DNA of 34,346 bases, taken from a virus. A program made the position numbers and the translations under genes. Where the stretch lies: positions 1 to 34,346 of IMG/VR virus record IMGVR_UViG_3300025133_009307, one strand, 5' to 3'. A model generated the notes under the pieces. The model saw only the letters and a list, made by a program, of their open reading frames with translations. It ran no database searches and was not told where the DNA came from. How positions within the stretch are numbered: the stretch's first letter is position 1; every line of letters begins with the position of its first letter. Shown here one piece after another: positions 3,776-34,346 of the stretch.

Positions 3776-4378
3776 TTACTCGAATGCTATGTCTACATCT
3801 ATCTTGATTTTAAGTGTTGGTACTCTTATTTGATTAGCTAAGTTATGCTTTTTAGCCTCTTCAGAGTCAAGATACCAATCTGCATGACCCTTCTTATGGA
3901 CTATTTTTAAAAAATGATCCTTTCTTTTTCCACAGTTTGACGCCATCATTTCATAAACTAGTTTATTAAGTCTATCTGTCTCTTCAGCAGATGCCTTTAT
4001 TTCTTCTACCTTGCCTCGCTCCATAGAGGAGACATCATGAATCATAACTGTCGCGCTTGAATCCATAAATCTATATCCCTCCTCTCCGAAGCTAAATAGA
4101 ATAGCACCGCAAGACATAGCTTTTCCTTCAACAATTGTCGCAACAGGAATGTCTGCATTTCTTATAGCGCTTATCATTGCCATGAGACTATAGACCTGGC
4201 CGCCGTAAGAATCTATAACAACTGGGATTATATTCTGTCCAGTATTGTGAGCTGTTGCTATTTGATCTTGAAATTCTTTTGCAGACTTTTCATCAAATTT
4301 ATTAACTCTAACAATTACAGGATTTTTTCTTAGCTCAACATCCTTTAAAAGCCCAGAAATCTCTGTAGTCCACTTCAT
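3776..4378 (-). CDS. ClpP-like serine protease
   Basis: A 200-aa ClpP/crotonase-fold serine peptidase (family S14). The triad is visible: nucleophile Ser89 in GKAMSCGA, His114 in MIHDV, and Asp167 in HADWYLDSEEAKKHNLANQI, aligned with the ClpP segment around its catalytic Asp. The oxyanion Gly pair is in IDSYGG (56-60). Length is that of cellular ClpP. No Clp ATPase is encoded in this window, so it would act alone, with host ClpX/ClpA, or as a prohead-type protease. Its position among metabolic genes, far from any head gene, argues weakly against the prohead role. The ATG has GAGG 5 nt upstream. That site lies in the 3' arm of an inverted repeat, and the start overlaps the stop of a short upstream ORF (ATGA). 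Confidence 0.85.
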   Translation of the reverse strand: MKWTTEISGLLKDVELRKNPVIVRVNKFDEKSAKEFQDQIATAHNTGQNIIPVVIDSYGGQVYSLMAMISAIRNADIPVATIVEGKAMSCGAILFSFGEEGYRFMDSSATVMIHDVSSMERGKVEEIKASAEETDRLNKLVYEMMASNCGKRKDHFLKIVHKKGHADWYLDSEEAKKHNLANQIRVPTLKIKIDVDIAFE

Positions 4379-11813: not shown

Positions 11814-11857
11814 ATTTAGTTTTTAGTTTTTAGTTTTTAATTTTTAGTTTTTAATTT
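11814..11857. repeat. TTTTTAG/TTTTTAA heptamer tandem repeat
   Basis: About six consecutive 7-nt units of TTTTTAG or TTTTTAA lie between the stop codons of the preceding gene and the leader of the gp32-like gene. A further TTTTTAG copy occurs near 11753. It is largely noncoding. The low-complexity, 7-base period differs from the hexamer in recA. It may reflect slippage or an unstructured, A-rich mRNA leader. Confidence 0.65.
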
Positions 11858-12129
11858 TTCTTTCTCTTAGTCTTTCTCCTTTTCTTTGATCCTCCAGCCG
11901 TACCGGTTGAAAACTCTTTTGCTTTCTTGACGATTCTATTAGGAGCGCCTGGATTGACAAGACTGCCACCTCCAAAGAAGCTAGCGTTTCGCTTAGTAAG
12001 CTTTTCATAGCTCTGCCCAGATCCAGTACCAAGAGGGCCAATCCATCCTGCGATATTTCCTGATCCGACCGTATTTTGTTCGTCCTCTCTCGAGATATCA
12101 TCTTCTTCTTCATCGTCTAATAGTTCTCT
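11851..12129 (-). CDS. -1 frame C-terminal extension of the virion-like protein upstream
   Basis: This frame has no ATG, GTG or TTG but encodes 92 ordinary-looking residues. It begins RELLDDEEEDDISRED, continues with a Gly-rich segment (GSGNIAGWIGPLGTGSG) and ends in a basic tail (KKRRKTKRKKN). It opens exactly at the A9 tract at the 3' end of the upstream 520-aa gene, in the -1 frame. Ribosomal slippage on AAA AAA AAA would therefore join the two into a protein of about 609 aa. A one-base error in the homopolymer is the alternative. The frame chosen by an ATG at 12113 (stop at 11844) is in the zero frame and gives a less protein-like sequence. Confidence 0.6.
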   Translation of the reverse strand, partial: RELLDDEEEDDISREDEQNTVGSGNIAGWIGPLGTGSGQSYEKLTKRNASFFGGGSLVNPGAPNRIVKKAKEFSTGTAGGSKKRRKTKRKKN

Positions 12130-13679
12130 TTTTTTTTATTTTCAGATATAATAGATTTTATTTTCCTTCGAATTATACTTCTAAGGGCAGCTTCTTTTAC
12201 AAGCTTATTTCTATCTTGATATGCGACAACTCCGCCGTCGGTTTTATATGCTACAGCAAATTCGTCATAGTCATCTAATGTTTCAAAATCAGAATCTGCA
12301 TCTTCCTTTGAAATGACTACGGGAACTGATCTGTATTCAAATCCTGTCGGCTGTGCTGCGTGATAAGATGGATAGTCTGGATATACAGACTCTCTTATAA
12401 AGCTTCTAAGCTCTTCAAGTGACATTTGTTCTCCTCCGGTCTGTGCAATTGCTTGGCGTAATTCTGATGGTAGTTCTACACCTGTTTCATTCGAGATCTT
12501 GTCAAGTGTTCCTTGAACAACTACATCACCTGGTGTTAGCTCTTCTGGATTGTGAAGAGCTCTATAAAATTCTCCAAGTCTTCTAAATGCCCTATCGGGA
12601 TAAAATATTACTGCCCTTAAAATTCCTCCGCCTTCCTCTAGCTTTGACATGTATTTCTGAACAGTCTCGGGACGGAGTGATCTTATCCACTCACTATATT
12701 TCTCAAGATATCCCGCTCCTTTTGTGGCCATATCAAACAACCATCGCTCAATAGGAATCATCTCTCCAAAAAATCCAGCAATACCTGTAGCAATATTTGC
12801 AGCAGGAACTGTCACTAGTTCTTCTGGTACTGCCGCTTGCGGGCCTGCAAAGCCTGCTGCAGTCGTTCCTACAGAATCGACTGTTTGAATAAGCGTCAAA
12901 ATAATAGATTTAAGCTGAGAGAGAAAATTATCAAACTCTTCTTTAATCGGGTCTGTATTTTCAACAGTAACCAGTGCCATGATATCTTGCCACTGCTGCT
13001 CATTATCAGATGTTAGAGCTGCAACAAATTGATTCTCTGGAACAGCTATCATTGTGACTAGAGAATCAGACGCTCCCTTTATCTTAGACATTGACCATCC
13101 AAGTAGAGCTGTTCCCAAAACTATGTCAACATAGGGAATTGCCATGCCTGCTGACTTGAGCGCTGCCGGAACAAGCTTCACAGCAGCTTGAGCTAATCCC
13201 TCATCTACTGTTTCATCACCTTCATTAAATACACTTAAAAGTGAGTATCTTGAATCACTAACAATATTGTCATCTTTAAATGTCATTTCTCTGATCCCTT
13301 GAATCTTTGGCCTCTTAATTTTAAAATCCTTTGGAAGCTTTCTACTTCTAATTGGGCTAGGCTCATCACCATAATAAATATCTTCGTCTTCGGCTTCTTG
13401 CTCAGGAAACATAGGAATATCTAAATAAACATCATCATATCCTGTATTTACTCTTGCAAGATATGATGAGAATGTAGAATCAGCTCCCTGAGTTGGTCTC
13501 CCAGTTCTAAAGTCTGGTAGTTTTCCGTGACCAATCTTTTGTTTATAATCGTCGCCGCCGCCCATGGCGCCGCCGATCGGGATTCCAATCCCCCTGCCGG
13601 ACCACACACCTTTTTCAGGTACATTATCCATAGAAGCTGCGTACTTCTTTTTAAATTGTTTAGACTTTAATGTTGCCAT
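12117..13679 (-). CDS. Unidentified, probably virion-associated protein
   Basis: A 520-aa protein I cannot assign. The N-terminus is basic and Gly-rich. A hydrophobic stretch at about 167-197 (AAVKLVPAALKSAGMAIPYV and onward) could be membrane-active. Further Ala/Val-rich hydrophobic segments lie around 260-310. The C-terminal part contains LRSIIRRKIKSIISENKKK, which resembles the LKxIIxEEL-type segment of the neighbouring 167-aa protein and of small virion proteins in large phages. It may be an internal or membrane-penetrating virion component; this is inference. No ribosome binding site is evident before the ATG. The coding frame ends at an A9 tract followed by TAG, where a -1 shift would add 92 residues. 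Confidence 0.75.
   Translation of the reverse strand: MATLKSKQFKKKYAASMDNVPEKGVWSGRGIGIPIGGAMGGGDDYKQKIGHGKLPDFRTGRPTQGADSTFSSYLARVNTGYDDVYLDIPMFPEQEAEDEDIYYGDEPSPIRSRKLPKDFKIKRPKIQGIREMTFKDDNIVSDSRYSLLSVFNEGDETVDEGLAQAAVKLVPAALKSAGMAIPYVDIVLGTALLGWSMSKIKGASDSLVTMIAVPENQFVAALTSDNEQQWQDIMALVTVENTDPIKEEFDNFLSQLKSIILTLIQTVDSVGTTAAGFAGPQAAVPEELVTVPAANIATGIAGFFGEMIPIERWLFDMATKGAGYLEKYSEWIRSLRPETVQKYMSKLEEGGGILRAVIFYPDRAFRRLGEFYRALHNPEELTPGDVVVQGTLDKISNETGVELPSELRQAIAQTGGEQMSLEELRSFIRESVYPDYPSYHAAQPTGFEYRSVPVVISKEDADSDFETLDDYDEFAVAYKTDGGVVAYQDRNKLVKEAALRSIIRRKIKSIISENKKKENY
12129..12137 (-). promoter_or_regulatory. A9 slippery tract, candidate -1 frameshift site
   Basis: In the coding strand AAT AAA AAA AAA GAG is followed ten bases later by the zero-frame TAG. 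Tandem AAA codons are a recognised slippery context for -1 slippage in bacteria. I did not identify a convincing downstream stimulatory hairpin by eye. Confidence 0.5.
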
Positions 13680-13715: not shown

Positions 13716-14219
13716 TTACCAGCCGCCAGCTTCTTCTACTTCTGGTACACCGCCGCCATACGGGACATCGAATCCCATCTTGATTCCTAAGATCGCCCCA
13801 ATTGCTGCCTGAACGTCCTCATCATCGGGATATTTTTCAGCAATTGACTGAAGTGCGTTAGCGAGAACCCTGCCCTTGCCCTGTCTAGCTGTTGTGTCTG
13901 GCTCTATTGTACCAAGCATCTCATCAAAGATGGGCCTTAACTGTGCTGACAGCTGCCCAGATACTGATCTTAAGCTCTCATATCCGAATGGAAGATTCTC
14001 TGAGTCTGCTTTTGGAAGAGCTCTACCTTTGTATCTCTCAATTCTTCCTGTGATCTCAGCGGGTTCATCTCCTTCTTCTGGCCTTGTGGGGTCTGCCATG
14101 ATAGAAAATGTCTTTTGATCATCACTGATCTTTAAAGTGTCAGGATTTACTCTCTCTCTAATTGCTCTTTGAAGCTCTTCTTGAATTATTCTTTTTAGTG
14201 TACTTGACTTAAGTTTCAT
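13716..14219 (-). CDS. Unidentified, probably virion-associated protein with LKRIIQEEL motif
   Basis: A 167-aa protein beginning MKLKSSTLKRIIQEELQRAI. From memory, the start MKL...LKxIIxEEL is a recurring N-terminus among small virion proteins of large T4-like marine phages, possibly a packaging or scaffold-type signal. The middle is charged; the C-terminus ends in a Gly-rich stretch (VPYGGGVPEVEEAGGW). No catalytic motif is visible. The ATG has GGAG 8 nt upstream. It lies directly before the 520-aa gene with a related C-terminal motif, so the two may belong to the same assembly step. Function unknown. Confidence 0.75.
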   Translation of the reverse strand: MKLKSSTLKRIIQEELQRAIRERVNPDTLKISDDQKTFSIMADPTRPEEGDEPAEITGRIERYKGRALPKADSENLPFGYESLRSVSGQLSAQLRPIFDEMLGTIEPDTTARQGKGRVLANALQSIAEKYPDDEDVQAAIGAILGIKMGFDVPYGGGVPEVEEAGGW

Positions 14220-27017: not shown

Positions 27018-27305
27018 TCACTTAAACTTCTTTTCACGTCTTGAAGCCTCTAAGTTCATCTCTCCCATTGGGATCTCTTGAATTCTTTGTCCTCTTTCTG
27101 CTGATCTATCTCTATCTCTCTTCTTGTGCTGCTCTGCTTTCTTCTTAAACTCTGTAGAAAGTCTATCTAAAAACCATCTTCTATACGGGATAGGGAGTTT
27201 TCTAATATCAGAATAGCTCATGTTAAGATGATATTGTAACAGAAAGCACTCTTCAAGAAAATTCTCTCTGCGATTACTCGCTGGGCCAAAAAAAATTGGT
27301 CCCAA
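27018..27305 (-). CDS. Tail-assembly partner in the +1 frame of the gp26-like gene
   Basis: A 95-aa frame overlapping the 3' end of the preceding gene by 32 nt. Its core FLEECFLLQYHLNMSYSDIR followed by KLPIPYRRWFLDRLSTEF resembles the short second member of phage tail-assembly chaperone pairs. The C-terminus is highly charged. The only early start is a TTG at 27305 with a poor ribosome binding site. A T8 tract inside the overlap would allow a +1 (or -2) ribosomal shift from the upstream gene, giving a fusion of about 353 aa. It lies directly before the tape measure gene, the canonical chaperone position. Whether it is made alone or as a fusion is undecided. Confidence 0.7.
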   Translation of the reverse strand: MGPIFFGPASNRRENFLEECFLLQYHLNMSYSDIRKLPIPYRRWFLDRLSTEFKKKAEQHKKRDRDRSAERGQRIQEIPMGEMNLEASRREKKFK

Positions 27306-28080
27306 TGGGAAGGGACACCCTGGAAGTGTTGCTGCATCTAGGGCAGCTCATCCAAACAGACATGTCAATTCCAGGCTCCTGTTTTTCAATATACGCCCTA
27401 AGCCGTCTTGAATCAAGTGCTGGCATCTTCTTAACAAATTGATTAATCTTATTTCTCTCTGTTACACCGTCAATAGATAAAATAAGCTGTTCTAATTTAG
27501 ATGTAACTGCAGAATCAACCTTCATACCAGGAGACATCTTCTTTTTTCTCTCCATTGTTAGGTTTCTCTCTGCCTCATCTTCACCTGTTAAAAATTTAAA
27601 ATGGACCTCTTTTCCCGTGACGGGAAGAGTAAACGAAAATCTATTTTCACCAGCTATAACAGGTTCAATTTCAAGCCGCTTAATCTCAAGATCAGTCAAA
27701 TTATACTGCTGTGCACTTCTTTCTCCGCACTCTGGACATGTGGAGTCTGCATTATACGAGCTACCATATCCGGTAATTCTAACAGATACCATCAATGAAT
27801 TTCTATCTCCTAGCAGCATATTCTGAACATCGACTGCCTTGTCTATTAGGCAGGACTGAATGAGATGTGTAATAACAGTTCCTTTTTGAATTAGAGCTCG
27901 GGAAGATAATATGTCCTCCTCCTGAGCTGTCATTGCCCTAATTTCAAGAACTTGTTTATTATGAAGCACACTATTTTGCGGATAAACCTTGCCTTCTGAG
28001 GGTATTGGTACAACCTCTACTGGCACCTCCCAATTAAATGTATCTTTTGTAACATCTTGGGATTGAATATTGTCTGACAC
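27274..28080 (-). CDS. Baseplate hub/tail assembly protein, T4 gp26-like
   Basis: A 268-aa protein resembling the T4 gp26 baseplate family in marine phages. The N-terminus has VPIPSEGKVYP followed by LEIRAMTAQEEDILSSRALI (47-66), the most typical block. Two CxxC pairs, CPEC at 115-118 and CPRC at 246-249, could bind zinc together. The C-terminus ends in NFFWPSE. It starts with GTG, with GGAG 7 nt upstream, just after a strong terminator, so it needs its own promoter or read-through. Its position before the tape measure gene and its out-of-frame overlap with the next gene fit a tail-assembly chaperone as well as a hub subunit. Confidence 0.8.
   Translation of the reverse strand: MSDNIQSQDVTKDTFNWEVPVEVVPIPSEGKVYPQNSVLHNKQVLEIRAMTAQEEDILSSRALIQKGTVITHLIQSCLIDKAVDVQNMLLGDRNSLMVSVRITGYGSSYNADSTCPECGERSAQQYNLTDLEIKRLEIEPVIAGENRFSFTLPVTGKEVHFKFLTGEDEAERNLTMERKKKMSPGMKVDSAVTSKLEQLILSIDGVTERNKINQFVKKMPALDSRRLRAYIEKQEPGIDMSVWMSCPRCSNTSRVSLPIGTNFFWPSE
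27288..27295 (-). promoter_or_regulatory. T8 tract, candidate +1/-2 frameshift site
   Basis: In the coding strand ACC AAT TTT TTT TGG CCC lies 9 nt before the stop of the gp26-like gene and inside the overlap with the +1-frame gene. Homopolymeric TTT TTT permits re-pairing after a shift. No stimulatory structure was identified. Confidence 0.35.
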
Positions 28081-28735: not shown

Positions 28736-31700
28736 TTATGCATTGTCAAATGCATCTCCAGCATTGGTTAAGACGAAGTCAAGAGAAACGAATTCTGCAG
28801 TTCTTGTGGGCTGCAAGAAGATCTTACCCCTAAGGGTGTTATTCTCAACATCTGTTTGTGTGGTCGTGGTTGCATCAATGACTACCTTAAATCTTTCAAC
28901 TCCACTCTTCTCCTGAATGCTCTGGAGAATAGGCTGAACTAGAGAGCTAAACTTATCTAGTGTCTCCTGCCTGTTGGGTTCAAATAGCATTTGATTTGCA
29001 ACTGCTCTGACCTTTCTTCTAACATTAATTAGAAGCCTTCTAACATTAACCCTATCAAGAGCAGATGGAGCTGCCATCAGCGTCTTCTGTCCGAAGACCA
29101 TCACGCCTGTTCCTGGGAATGCTGTTAGCGGGTTTATGTCAGCGTCATATAAATCATCCATATTCGACTTATTGAGAGGAACTGAAGATTGAAGGACGTC
29201 TGTTAGTGCGCCTCTAGAGAAACCAGCTGGTGCGAACCAGGGGTATCCAATGGCATCATTGAGTGAAAATGCTCCCATGACTGCAACTGATGGGGGACAT
29301 TGAACATTAGTGAATGTTGTGGGATCTGTTAATACCACATCTGGGAAGTATGCAGCTGCGAATGATGTATCTAGTGCTCTTCCCCTGAATCCCGCGACTG
29401 TTGTTCCAATATTTGCTGTGGAGGCAACTGAGGATGTTATGACAGATGCCATTTCATCTTGCTCCTCTATATCCATTACATACATTGCATCAAATCTATT
29501 CTCTACAGTGTCTATTGCATAGTTTGTCACACCCGCAGTTCGAAGACCGGGTATGGCCAGGAGCTTGATATCCACATCTGATTTTGTGCCCATTATATCT
29601 AGCGCCTTTCTATAGGCAGCTATTGTAGGACCAGATACCCCGCCCTGTGCAGTAGAATCGTCCATCTCCCTCTTTGCTGCTGCATTGAGTAATCTTGACT
29701 TATCTTTGTTGAAAATATTCAGACCATTAAATCCAGACTGAAGGAAGAATGTAAACTTACCAAACTTTCTATTTCCCTGAATCTTCATGTCATTGACATT
29801 AAGTGCTCTAGTCTTATTAGATGGATTAGCATTTAATTGAGCACCACCATTTCTAATGTAGGATGCTGTAACCCAATATTCTGGATCTGCGTTAGTATCA
29901 GATCCAGTTCTAACCATAACTCTCTCTAAGCTAAAGATATTATTATTGAACTTATCGCAGTCTAATACTGTTCCTGCAGAATCTGCTACGCCGGGATTAT
30001 TTCCTACTGCAACATCTCTATTAGAGGAACCATATTGTGGGAAGAACTTCGTAAATTGTGCAATTGATCTATCCTGAAGACCGAGCAGATTCGGCTTAGA
30101 GACTGACACCTTCTGCATGAACTGTGTTCCCCAGTAGAGATTAGCAGATGGTCTATCATTGGGAGCTGTTCCGACTGCAACTGTCTGTCTATACGGTACT
30201 GGAGGTTGAACTGCCCTTCTCAAAGTCTGTGTTGTGGCCACCCCGGCGAATGGGCCGGTGGTGGCGGTGCCATCAGGCCAGAGAGATCCGCCGGAATTTG
30301 CCGCTGCAAGTGGGTTAGTTCCAGATGTTACGAGGTGGGTATATCCTCTATAACCGAATGGAAGAGCCTCTTTGGGAACCTGTCCATTTCTAAGCTCATT
30401 ACTCTGTTCAACTCTTATGTAGTTAGATTTGACAGGATGATCTCCTGCTACAACGAGCTTTTGTGACGAAGATGCTTGGTCAAAGTCAAAGTAGGAGTAC
30501 ATATCTCCAATTGCCCTAGCTATAAACTTATCGCTACTTGGATCGAGAGATAATCCTCTAAATGACTCAACAACCTTCTTTTCAAAGTCTGTATCTGTCC
30601 ACTGTCTAACAAGCAGATCAAATGTTCCATACTTATCAGTTGTTGATGTTGATGGCTTTAGATTCTCAATTGAGATCTTAATGTGGGTATTACTATAGTC
30701 TCCATCACCTAGAGCATGAATTCTAACGATATTCCACTTCTTTCCACCAAAGTCCTGCGATACAACAAATGGTGACTTGGGATGAGTGAATCTCTCCTCC
30801 CACGACTCGTAGTTTGGAGAGTTAGCATTTCCAGCATCTCTAGCTAATGTGCCAGATGCTAGGAAGGCAATTGGTTCTCCGCCCCCTAAGGCTCCCTTAT
30901 CCCATGTGCTTCCTCCGGCTGTGTCTGTAATGACTCCCGCTCCTGTAACAACAGCTAATGCAGGATGAATATCATAGGCAGCGTATAGAAGGTGACCCTT
31001 CTCCTCAATCTTAAATGGATCTGTATTGAGGACATTTGAAAAATAGCTAGCATCCTCCATATCGAATGATGCTGTAATAACATTTGGTGCAGCAGAATTA
31101 TGAATGTGTCCGTTTAGAAGAAGAGTGAACTGCTGTGATCCAATCTCACATGATCCAGAATATGCACCTTGAAGATATCTCCCCCCCACACCGAGGGTGC
31201 CGTCGTCGGTTGTTCTCGCTGGAATTCCAGCACGTGGCTGTGTCGATCCGGCTGTCCAGTTTCCAGATAGCTGAATGATAACACCTGAGGGTGCCATTAG
31301 CACGCCTCTAATAATTGGTACTGCTATATTTGCGTTAGAATCTGCGGTTTGAAGACCTGCATCACTAAAGATGGTTGATCCAGCGGAGCCGGACATGAAT
31401 ACTCCCAGGAACATTGTTCTTCCTGGATCTCCGCCATCAACTGCGTTTACGTTTCTACCAACAAGGCCGTTTGCCTGGACCTGCTTGCTACCTACGACGA
31501 ATCCTGCGTTTGTAACAACTCCCGTGTCTGACGACCTCTGTTTTCCATCTCCAATACCAAGAACTCTTACGTAGGTCAGAGCCTGCGCATGCTTTAGAAA
31601 CTGCTGGACAGCGAGCGGGCCAAATTTTTGACCATCAGTTGCTCCAAATACTGCAGCAAAGTCGCTATAACTCCCCACTGTTATTGGAACAAATGCCGGA

Positions 31701-31819
31701 CCTTCATTAGAAGTTCCAATCACACCTGCGGGAGTTCCTACAGGCTGTGCAGTTGTTGGGCCAGTGAGATCTATTTCGTTAGTATAAACCCCTGGGCTTC
31801 TATAAGTTACCTCAGCCAT
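28736..31819 (-). CDS. Tail sheath protein, gp18-like (copy 1)
   Basis: A 1027-aa contractile sheath subunit. The N-terminus has the family pattern TYRSPGVYTNEIDLTGPTTA followed by GTPAGVIGTSNEGPAFVPI. The C-terminal ~230 residues are the conserved sheath core: FPDVVLTD, YPWFAPAGFSRGAL, INPLTAFPGTGVMVFGQKTL, then DRVNVRRLLINVRRKV and an LDFVLTNAG end. It is much longer than T4 gp18 (about 659), so extra surface domains are inserted in the middle (about 100-600). The ATG has a GGAG upstream. It lies between a second sheath gene and the tube gene. Function is secure. Confidence 0.95.
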   Translation of the reverse strand: MAEVTYRSPGVYTNEIDLTGPTTAQPVGTPAGVIGTSNEGPAFVPITVGSYSDFAAVFGATDGQKFGPLAVQQFLKHAQALTYVRVLGIGDGKQRSSDTGVVTNAGFVVGSKQVQANGLVGRNVNAVDGGDPGRTMFLGVFMSGSAGSTIFSDAGLQTADSNANIAVPIIRGVLMAPSGVIIQLSGNWTAGSTQPRAGIPARTTDDGTLGVGGRYLQGAYSGSCEIGSQQFTLLLNGHIHNSAAPNVITASFDMEDASYFSNVLNTDPFKIEEKGHLLYAAYDIHPALAVVTGAGVITDTAGGSTWDKGALGGGEPIAFLASGTLARDAGNANSPNYESWEERFTHPKSPFVVSQDFGGKKWNIVRIHALGDGDYSNTHIKISIENLKPSTSTTDKYGTFDLLVRQWTDTDFEKKVVESFRGLSLDPSSDKFIARAIGDMYSYFDFDQASSSQKLVVAGDHPVKSNYIRVEQSNELRNGQVPKEALPFGYRGYTHLVTSGTNPLAAANSGGSLWPDGTATTGPFAGVATTQTLRRAVQPPVPYRQTVAVGTAPNDRPSANLYWGTQFMQKVSVSKPNLLGLQDRSIAQFTKFFPQYGSSNRDVAVGNNPGVADSAGTVLDCDKFNNNIFSLERVMVRTGSDTNADPEYWVTASYIRNGGAQLNANPSNKTRALNVNDMKIQGNRKFGKFTFFLQSGFNGLNIFNKDKSRLLNAAAKREMDDSTAQGGVSGPTIAAYRKALDIMGTKSDVDIKLLAIPGLRTAGVTNYAIDTVENRFDAMYVMDIEEQDEMASVITSSVASTANIGTTVAGFRGRALDTSFAAAYFPDVVLTDPTTFTNVQCPPSVAVMGAFSLNDAIGYPWFAPAGFSRGALTDVLQSSVPLNKSNMDDLYDADINPLTAFPGTGVMVFGQKTLMAAPSALDRVNVRRLLINVRRKVRAVANQMLFEPNRQETLDKFSSLVQPILQSIQEKSGVERFKVVIDATTTTQTDVENNTLRGKIFLQPTRTAEFVSLDFVLTNAGDAFDNA

Positions 31820-31856
31820 TTATTTATTCTCCATTGTGCACATGAATATCTATTCC

Positions 31857-34346
31857 CTACTCAAAGCTTACGCCAGCGTTAGTTATAATAAAGTCTATTG
31901 CGATGAATTCAACAGCTCTAGTCGGAACCACAACAATCCTACCATTAAGAATATTATTTTCAACATCCTCCTGTGTATTATTGCTTGCATCCATTACAAC
32001 CTTGAACTGATCAATTCCCTGTTGACTCTGTACTGTCGCTAGAAGGGGTGTTACCTGTGATACGAACCTTGCTCGTGTCTCAGGAGTGTTAGCTTCAAAT
32101 ACTATTTTCTGAGCCACATCAGAAACAAGTCGCTTAACTTCAAGCAACATTCTTCTAACATTTACTCTATCAAGAGCGCTCTTTGCTAGTTGAAGAGTCT
32201 TTTGACCAAATATTACGAATCCAGCATTTGGAAATGTTGCTATTGGGTTAATTCTAACATCATATAGAGTATCTCTATCCTGCTGATTTAACCTTACCTT
32301 GACATTTGATACAAAGTCTAGAGCAGCTCTATTAAATCCAGCTGGAGCAAACCACGGATATGCGACATTATCGTTATAGGCTAGTGCTCCAATTACTGCA
32401 ATAGATGCTGGAACTCTAACTGGCTGATTATTAATCTCATCTGTGATTGTAACATCAGGGAAATAGGTGCCTGAATAATTACTATCTAATGCCCTTCCGT
32501 CAAGTGCCTCTGCTGTCTTATCAACATTTGGTGCCGTTGAGCTGTCATCGAATAATCTATTCTGCTGCGCATCGTATGCTGGAAGATCCATTACATAGAA
32601 TGCCTTGCTATAGTCAGACAACCTAGCTTGAACATAATCTGTTAGAGCACCATCTCTGATTCCTGGAACTAATACTATATTGACACGTGACGCCATTGGA
32701 TCTGTAAGAATCCTTGAACCAACCCTATAGGATGCAACATAGGCATTGGTCGGACCTACTCCAAAGTCATTCTCAGAACTCAGGCCTATATCTAGCGATC
32801 CCACTCCAATCGTTCCGGCAGCCATTCCTCCTGAATCTGAAGATGTGGACCGGTCATCCATTCTTGCCATATCTGTATCAAGAATATTTACTCCATCAAA
32901 TCCTCCATACATAAAGTTTGTGAACTTAGTGTAGGTTGAAAATCTGTTAAAGTAGACTGATGATGTTAGTGCTGCTAGCGAAGCAAATGTTACTCTATTT
33001 CTTCCTGCCACAGTATCATACACTGTGTAAGTCTTAGAATTTATACGTCCGTTTCTAATGTAGGCTGTTTCTAGCATATGCTCTTTAGCTGAGCCAGTAA
33101 TGACGCTATTAGCTGTTATCGATAGATCAGGATTTCCTAGCGAATCCAGGGAAACCGCATTCGATAGTGCAACCTTTGCCATGGTGAATTTATTATTATT
33201 AAACGCATCTGCTCCAGATCCCGTAACCTGATTGTCGAGCTTTACTATTCCGGCGAATCTTGCATAATTTCTAAAGAGATCATTAACCTCGCTTGATACA
33301 TTTGCATCTAGCACAGCATCAGTTAGATCTGCCTCTCTTGGGATTCTAGTAAACTTGGCTCCCCAGTAGAATCTATTATCCACTCTCTCGTCGTCACCTT
33401 CTTCTCCAATCCATGTAACTCCAGAGTCCTGGACCTTTCCTCTTGTGCACTTAAATCTAAATGGCACAGGAGGTACGATTGATCCGCTTAGGGTGCTCAG
33501 ATAGCTTTCTCTTGGTTGAGCAAGTGATGCGGCACCAGCGGCTAATGCTCCAGATACGAATGTCATCCTTCTCGAGAGATCATTTCCAGTATCTCCCCTA
33601 ATTGGAACTGTGGGCCTATCAGTTAGCGTCTCATTTGTCTTGAGTGCTGGGAATCCTCTGAATCCGAATGGCAGGGCATCCTTGGGAACCTCTCCCTCTT
33701 CAAGGGAGAGTGCCATGATAACCCTAACTCTAGACGAGATGTTAGGATACTTGCCTTTCACGAGCACCTTTCTTTCATCATCTTGTTCTGCATCAAAGTT
33801 GTAATATGCCTTAAAGTCTCCCACCTTCTTAGCAAGGAAATCATCATCGTTCGGATTAAGCGTGCATAGTGGGTATGATTCCAAAACCTGCGGCGCAGTA
33901 TCACTATCATCAAAGGATCTAACCTCTAACGTAAATGTTCCATAAGGATCTGTAGGGTTAGATGACTTCTTAACATTGCTTATTGAAATCTTAAACTTCT
34001 CACTTGCATAGGCTCCATCAGATATGCACTCCACATGGAATAGATCAAACTCTGTCGCTCCATATGGCTGTGATATGAATGATGTCGTCTTTGGAGCAGC
34101 ATATCTTGTATCGAATCTTCCAAATGAATCTATAAAGGCTAGACTTGCGACGCCAGAGTCTTCAGAAGATAGAAGTGAACCAGATAGTAAGACTACCGAT
34201 GCATTTTGTCTTGTGGCGCCTCCAACTCTTCCTGTTCCCGGGATATCAGTTACGACTGCCAGCTCTGTCTCAACAGGGAAGTGAGCATAAAGAAGGTGCT
34301 GTTCTATCTGGAATCTTTCTGGATCAGTGTTGAGTATCTTTCCAAT
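31857..34346 (-). CDS. Tail sheath protein, gp18-like (copy 2), 5' end outside the window
   Basis: The open frame runs from the stop at 31857 to the window edge without interruption: 829 residues, N-terminus missing. A GTG at 34034 is internal, because the residues before it (ILNTDPERFQIEQHLLYAHF and onward) align with the same region of copy 1 (VLNTDPFKIEEKGHLLYAAY). The C-terminal sheath core matches copy 1 throughout: YPWFAPAGFNRAALDFVSNV, FPNAGFVIFGQKTL, DRVNVRRMLLEVKRLV and the end IDFIITNAGVSFE. The two genes are 37 nt apart and arose by duplication. Divergence is substantial, so this is not a recent copy. Both may be incorporated in the sheath, or one may be specialised. Confidence 0.93.
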   Translation of the reverse strand: MGKILNTDPERFQIEQHLLYAHFPVETELAVVTDIPGTGRVGGATRQNASVVLLSGSLLSSEDSGVASLAFIDSFGRFDTRYAAPKTTSFISQPYGATEFDLFHVECISDGAYASEKFKISISNVKKSSNPTDPYGTFTLEVRSFDDSDTAPQVLESYPLCTLNPNDDDFLAKKVGDFKAYYNFDAEQDDERKVLVKGKYPNISSRVRVIMALSLEEGEVPKDALPFGFRGFPALKTNETLTDRPTVPIRGDTGNDLSRRMTFVSGALAAGAASLAQPRESYLSTLSGSIVPPVPFRFKCTRGKVQDSGVTWIGEEGDDERVDNRFYWGAKFTRIPREADLTDAVLDANVSSEVNDLFRNYARFAGIVKLDNQVTGSGADAFNNNKFTMAKVALSNAVSLDSLGNPDLSITANSVITGSAKEHMLETAYIRNGRINSKTYTVYDTVAGRNRVTFASLAALTSSVYFNRFSTYTKFTNFMYGGFDGVNILDTDMARMDDRSTSSDSGGMAAGTIGVGSLDIGLSSENDFGVGPTNAYVASYRVGSRILTDPMASRVNIVLVPGIRDGALTDYVQARLSDYSKAFYVMDLPAYDAQQNRLFDDSSTAPNVDKTAEALDGRALDSNYSGTYFPDVTITDEINNQPVRVPASIAVIGALAYNDNVAYPWFAPAGFNRAALDFVSNVKVRLNQQDRDTLYDVRINPIATFPNAGFVIFGQKTLQLAKSALDRVNVRRMLLEVKRLVSDVAQKIVFEANTPETRARFVSQVTPLLATVQSQQGIDQFKVVMDASNNTQEDVENNILNGRIVVVPTRAVEFIAIDFIITNAGVSFE

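Follow-up and report, generated by a model that had tools for sequence, protein, structure and literature searches.

A minus-strand gene in an uncultured phage ends just after a run of nine adenines, and the -1 frame beyond that run stays open long enough to encode a further C-terminal extension. Is this junction a programmed recoding site that gives one protein two C-terminal forms, or a single gene split by a homopolymer indel? The stretch of DNA analysed, referred to here as the window, comprises the 34,346 nucleotides of IMG/VR record IMGVR_UViG_3300025133_009307; the features discussed are collected in Table 1. The best overall explanation, to which a rough probability of 0.62 is assigned from sequence comparisons, is recoding by slippage in the gene of a prohead-processed precursor that would carry a removable tail on part of its copies.

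The A9 junction and its -1 tail

The coding 3' end of the 520-aa gene reads AAT AAA AAA AAA GAG AAC TAT TAG, in agreement with the initial annotation, which placed the end of the gene just after the A9 tract. The heptamer A AAA AAA lies within the tract, and the next base is G. No other A-run of eight or more occurs in the window, where lysine is preferentially encoded by AAG (380 AAG vs 249 AAA). The junction is found again in about 20 diverged lineages and is therefore not a chance occurrence.

The -1 frame was also described correctly as open for 92 codons without a usable start, since no ATG, GTG or TTG precedes its TAA. The tail comprises an acidic linker, the motifs GxxGWxGPLG and FFGGGSLVNP, and a basic C-terminus; its predicted structure consists of two short helices, at low confidence (pLDDT 60). 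In 12 pairs of relatives, tail-frame substitutions fell mostly at third codon positions, with dN/dS at 0.10-0.26 in most pairs (full range in Table 1). Neither the zero frame past the stop nor the third frame gave a comparable pattern in the pairwise comparison. This pattern of substitution indicates that the tail frame is under purifying selection.

An 89-aa ORF with an ATG start (11844-12113) was rejected as a candidate, as it lies in the zero frame past the stop rather than in the tail frame and is not conserved. The compact, conserved character of the tail module might suggest that it is a gene in its own right, translated from its own start. Among the recoded relatives that were examined, however, no ATG, GTG or TTG lies upstream of the tail core, apart from a single GTG at the edge of the core in L041, and in L047, L050, L064, L071 and L075 the tail is the C-terminus of one ORF, so that a separate gene is highly improbable. 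In a further relative (L036:4961-5200) a second frame change occurs inside the tail, for which a mutation, a mistake in assembly or a further shift could account.

Assembly is prone to error at homopolymers, and a homopolymer indel splitting one gene was the alternative raised in the initial annotation. That alternative did not survive comparison of independent assemblies: the same offset occurs in these and in about 20 lineages, and near-identical contigs from different samples share one tract length (A9 in four, A10 in three and A11 in three, with further pairs in agreement). Sequencing error and a dead gene are excluded by this constancy together with the selection on the tail frame, and assembly error or a pseudogene was ruled out, the chance of either being close to nil. 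The same contigs bear on phase variation at the DNA level, whereby the length of the A-run would change in replication and virions would differ in tail expression. Homopolymers are mutable, and tracts of 9, 10, 11 and 12 are found among the lineages, but the single tract length of near-identical contigs makes such variation very unlikely.

Table 1. Coordinates of the features at the frameshift gene, in window positions. A slash marks the predicted cut within a site.
Feature	Position	Strand	Observation in relatives
Zero-frame gene, short form, 520 aa	12117-13679	-	Homologues known from about 25 lineages
A9 slippery tract, codons AAA AAA AAA	12129-12137	-	Every recoded relative has A9-A12
Zero-frame stop TAG, 2 codons past the tract	12117-12119	-	Found 0-6 codons beyond the tract, 20/20 lineages
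-1-frame tail, 92 codons past the tract, with its TAA (11851-11853)	11851-12135	-	dN/dS 0.10-0.54
Predicted prohead-protease-type site ISE/N, residues 511-513, directly before the slip site	12141-12149	-	
Predicted prohead-protease-type site FIRE/S, residues 427-430	12390-12401	-	(I/L)xE in 15/16 aligned relatives
Variable middle, helical, partly hydrophobic	12414-13286	-	Absent in L026/L037, L027 and L039
Predicted prohead-protease-type site IRE/M, residues 129-131	13287-13295	-	(I/L)xE in 12/14 aligned relatives

Frame arrangements among relatives

Relatives representing about 25 lineages were collected by sequence searches of IMG/VR. Annotated phage records contained no relatives of the frameshift gene. 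The 520-aa head ORF had no match in Pfam, PHROG or INPHARED, the tail had none in Pfam, PHROG or phage records, and a search of bacterial and archaeal genomes found no relative of the tail.

Three arrangements were distinguished. In most lineages, including the window (state i), the head ORF runs into A9-A12 and stops within 0-6 codons, with the tail in the -1 frame; a -1 tail following A9-A12 was found in 20 diverged lineages and in one whose site is displaced. The A9 site of L066-L069 falls within the tail, the first half of which is in the zero frame and the second half in the -1 frame. The -1 extension of L046 reaches 357 codons and includes a GDSL-type hydrolase domain (Pfam E 1.2e-15) ahead of the tail core. 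This GDSL/SGNH domain sits between the slip site and the core (L046:5018-6163), an enzyme reachable only via the frameshift.

In two lineages (state ii; L047, L082 and L050) head and tail form one ORF with A9 or A10 retained at the joint, and there a -1 slip would give ...KKR followed by a stop within 1-2 codons (KKR*). The slipped short form would end like the short forms of state (i), for example ...ESKKKR* in L048. Either arrangement encodes a short form as well as a long one, because the in-frame lineages with A9 or A10 meet a -1 stop after the slip. In three further lineages (state iii; L064, L071 and L075-77) the tail is fused in frame without a tract; the short form is therefore not needed everywhere. 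The initial annotation had taken an in-frame tail in relatives as a sign against recoding. A few distant lineages do have one, but in two of them A9 or A10 is kept and the -1 frame stops at once, which makes the case for recoding stronger.

On a tree of the neighbouring single-strand-binding protein (SSB), a proxy for the frameshift gene, which recombination could move, the frame states change at least about 6 times, and L078 (state i) and L082 (state ii) are sisters with 100/100 support. Together with the in-frame lineages lacking a tract, the roughly six changes would fit adventitious buffering, in which a mutable homopolymer produces an off-frame state that polymerase slippage rescues and the short form serves no purpose by itself; such rescue has been described for other genes (PMC1088944). 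Under buffering, an unselected tract of nine or more should decay. Moreover, the off-frame lineages are all -1 (20/20, none +1), the zero-frame stop follows closely in every one of the 20, and the in-frame lineages with a tract have their own stop in the -1 frame just as near. Buffering of this kind is regarded as unlikely.

An overlapping -1 ORF without its own start is thus fused to the upstream ORF, as expected of recoding; the site, the close stop and the downstream frame are conserved in diverged relatives (the 20 lineages and the one with the moved site), and the downstream frame shows coding-type selection. The claim of a programmed frameshift with two C-terminal forms is upheld by the -1 tail, which in about 20 lineages always follows A9-A12 and is selected in the tail frame only. 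These comparisons indicate that the A9 site is a programmed recoding site.

Mode of frameshifting

The initial annotation did not consider slippage by RNA polymerase, which is favoured here. The polymerase would slip on the A9 tract and add one A in a fraction of transcripts, and the extra A would lead to the product that a -1 ribosomal shift gives. The predicted products are a short protein ending just past the lysine run and a long protein bearing the 92-residue -1 tail. Bacterial RNA polymerase slips efficiently on nine As or Ts (PMC5009743), runs of nine are avoided in the coding regions of many bacterial genomes (PMC1088944), and on A7-A11 runs in E. coli insertions outnumber deletions (PMC6260861).

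The next candidate is -1 slippage of the ribosome on A AAA AAA (A AAA AAG/C in some relatives), which would give the same two products without a strong stimulator. A zero-frame slippery heptamer of the form X XXY YYZ is indeed present, as A AAA AAA, in all recoded relatives, and some frameshifts of tailed phages seem to lack stimulatory signals (PMC5009743). The direction is also always -1, as a ribosomal shift would give, which does not separate polymerase from ribosome.

The two modes differ in what they ask of the tract. A ribosomal shift at A AAA AAA requires 7, 8 or 9 As depending on codon phase, and slippage an A/T run of 9 or more. Tracts of at least 9 As were found in all three codon phases, including 12/12 lineages in the two informative phases; the chance of this would be about 5e-10 if the lineages were independent, which they are not, and the figure is too small because they are related. 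Folding of the downstream and upstream flanks gave no signal of RNA structure (z -1.5 to +1.9), and no Shine-Dalgarno-like stimulator was seen at the usual distance in the relatives examined, such a structure or stimulator being usual, though not obligatory, for -1 ribosomal shifts.

Because the tract is never shorter than nine in any phase and neither structure nor a Shine-Dalgarno stimulator accompanies it, slippage of RNA polymerase with insertion of one A is favoured as the probable mode, short of proof, and ribosomal slippage is given a smaller though substantial chance. The likelihoods given to the alternatives are not exclusive of the preferred explanation, as polymerase and ribosome slippage may act together.

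Predicted protein architecture and processing

The protein is composed of a conserved Gly-rich N-terminal module, a variable helical middle, a conserved C-terminal module and the tail. In L027, where the frameshift gene is without the variable middle, this region is found as a separate gene downstream (L027:3812-5344).

The T4 prohead protease gp21 cleaves after (L/I)xE. The proteases of T4 and of giant phages are reported to cleave after glutamate (PMC5694885). The candidate sites in the window protein have the form (I/L)xE, a short motif. In 16/20 lineages it occurs no more than 8 residues ahead of the tract, against 0-1/20 in windows 24-70 residues upstream. Two further predicted sites are conserved (Table 1), one of which, IRE/M, marks the end of the conserved N-terminal module.

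No head genes are present in the window itself. A 118-kb relative (G001) encodes a Peptidase_S77 protein of the T4 gp21 family (E 2.6e-26), and its protein N-termini are enriched for (I/L)xE (47/122 vs 25% elsewhere, p about 0.001). Cuts after the (I/L)xE sites, one of them just before the slip point, would be the work of the T4-type protease of the phage itself. We infer a precursor, internal or of the core, that is processed in the prohead and would lose its tail in maturation. Borne by only some copies, the tail may be a removable C-terminal extension by which the precursor is recruited or anchored in head assembly. The label 'virion-like' in the initial annotation was interpretive, and the prohead-protease motifs lend it partial support. 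A fold search with a low-confidence AlphaFold model (pLDDT 52) gave no match at E <= 0.001.

A T4-type prohead protease, seen through the relative G001, and conserved (I/L)xE motifs at predicted sites (15/16, 12/14 and 16/20) are features of T4-type internal head proteins. The N-terminal capsid targeting sequence (CTS) of such proteins was not found, the helix and (I/L)xE elements being internal or C-terminal, and the protein was not classified as a T4 internal protein because its targeting-like motifs are not N-terminal.

Comparison with known systems

The closest parallels lie among recoded genes and processed head proteins. In dnaX (tau/gamma), E. coli uses a ribosomal -1 shift at A AAA AAG and Thermus thermophilus RNA polymerase slippage at A9, and candidates with reversed frame arrangements have been described (PMC5009743). 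The phage gene resembles dnaX in its A-run, in long and short forms with a common N-terminal part, in the stop close after the site, and in having both frame arrangements among relatives with both products kept. It differs in encoding another protein, in a site near the C-terminus where no stem-loop or Shine-Dalgarno element was found, and in that the long form depends on the shift in most phage lineages.

In CsoS2 (Cso2A/Cso2B) of alpha-carboxysomes, -1 frameshifting gives two C-terminal lengths, though only in certain species (PMC5009743). CsoS2 too is an internal, shell-linked protein with two C-terminal lengths, a likeness that would extend to location if the prohead reading is right, but it has a complex 3' stem-loop stimulator, and no sequence relation to the phage gene was seen. 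By any test made, the phage gene is a member of neither dnaX nor CsoS2.

In Shigella mxiE and spa13, slippage on an A/T run likewise leads to a longer product, adding 112 aa at 25-30% in spa13 (PMC5009743). These are bacterial type III secretion genes with experimental evidence, whereas the present case is a phage gene family studied by sequence comparison. The gp21-processed internal head proteins of T4 share with the phage protein a same-family protease (in a relative), helix and (I/L)xE motifs, and variable cargo joined to conserved modules; no sequence similarity is detectable, and the T4 CTSs are N-terminal while the phage motifs are internal and C-terminal. T7 gp10A/10B and lambda gpG/gpGT are also single genes with two C-terminal forms, but they use ribosomal shifts in major capsid and tail-chaperone genes, and the phage gene, whose homopolymer has at least 9 bases, belongs to an unrelated family.

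Genomic context

A gp32-like single-strand-binding protein is encoded downstream of the frameshift gene, which adjoins UvsX, a DnaB-like helicase, a polymerase and T4-type tail genes. Because of these neighbours the phages are considered T4-like and contractile-tailed, and the family is one of uncultured T4-like marine-type phages. Two isolated phages, Microcystis phage Mel-JY01 and Flavobacterium phage immuto, have a similar replication block; both carry other proteins at this place, and no A-run of at least 8 was found on the coding strand of the stretch examined. Just upstream of the SSB, Mel-JY01 encodes an unrelated 428-aa protein (L086:3598-4884) ending ...REQLKEKIRIIVKRVLNEAMK, an end with the helix and (I/L)xE look of the head protein's C-terminus.

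Several other observations were made in the window. The neighbouring 167-aa protein (13716-14219) starts MKLKSSTLKRIIQEELQRAIRE, a beginning that resembles the helix at the C-terminal end of the frameshift gene; N-termini like it are found on several G001 proteins and are possibly capsid targeting sequences. Isocitrate lyase and malate synthase, the glyoxylate shunt, are encoded side by side in this T4-like phage (883-3763), together with a phosphomannomutase/HAD-type gene (62-871) and a ClpP-like protease (3776-4378); glyoxylate-shunt enzymes are mentioned in papers on marine viral metabolic genes (e.g. PMC4053976). A T8 run (27288-27295) falls in the overlap (27274-27305) of a T4_baseplate gene (27274-28080) with a 95-aa ORF in another frame (27018-27305), which has a TTG start and no ATG, the G001 counterpart (L055:18003) having an ATG. 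Two tandem tail-sheath paralogues (28736-34346) are also present in G001 (L055:10271-16552).

Significance

To our knowledge, programmed transcriptional slippage has seldom been documented, and we know of no well-studied slippage case in head-related genes of a tailed phage. The type of recoding is already known from dnaX and CsoS2; the gene family and the flipping of its frame are new here. Automatic annotation labels such genes as truncated and overlooks the tail.

For the family as a whole a broader reading is put forward tentatively, at slightly less than even odds: polymerase slippage on A9-A12 would fix the proportions in which a prohead-processed precursor is made in its two C-terminal forms, the frame having flipped with both products kept, the slip point standing by a predicted protease site and the GDSL domain of L046 being slip-dependent. 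The family is a natural experiment: about 20 lineages share the site, in two the frames are reversed and in three the tract is missing, which opens the roles of the run and of both products to comparison. Slippage would load a removable tail, and in L046 even an enzyme domain, onto a set fraction of the precursor.
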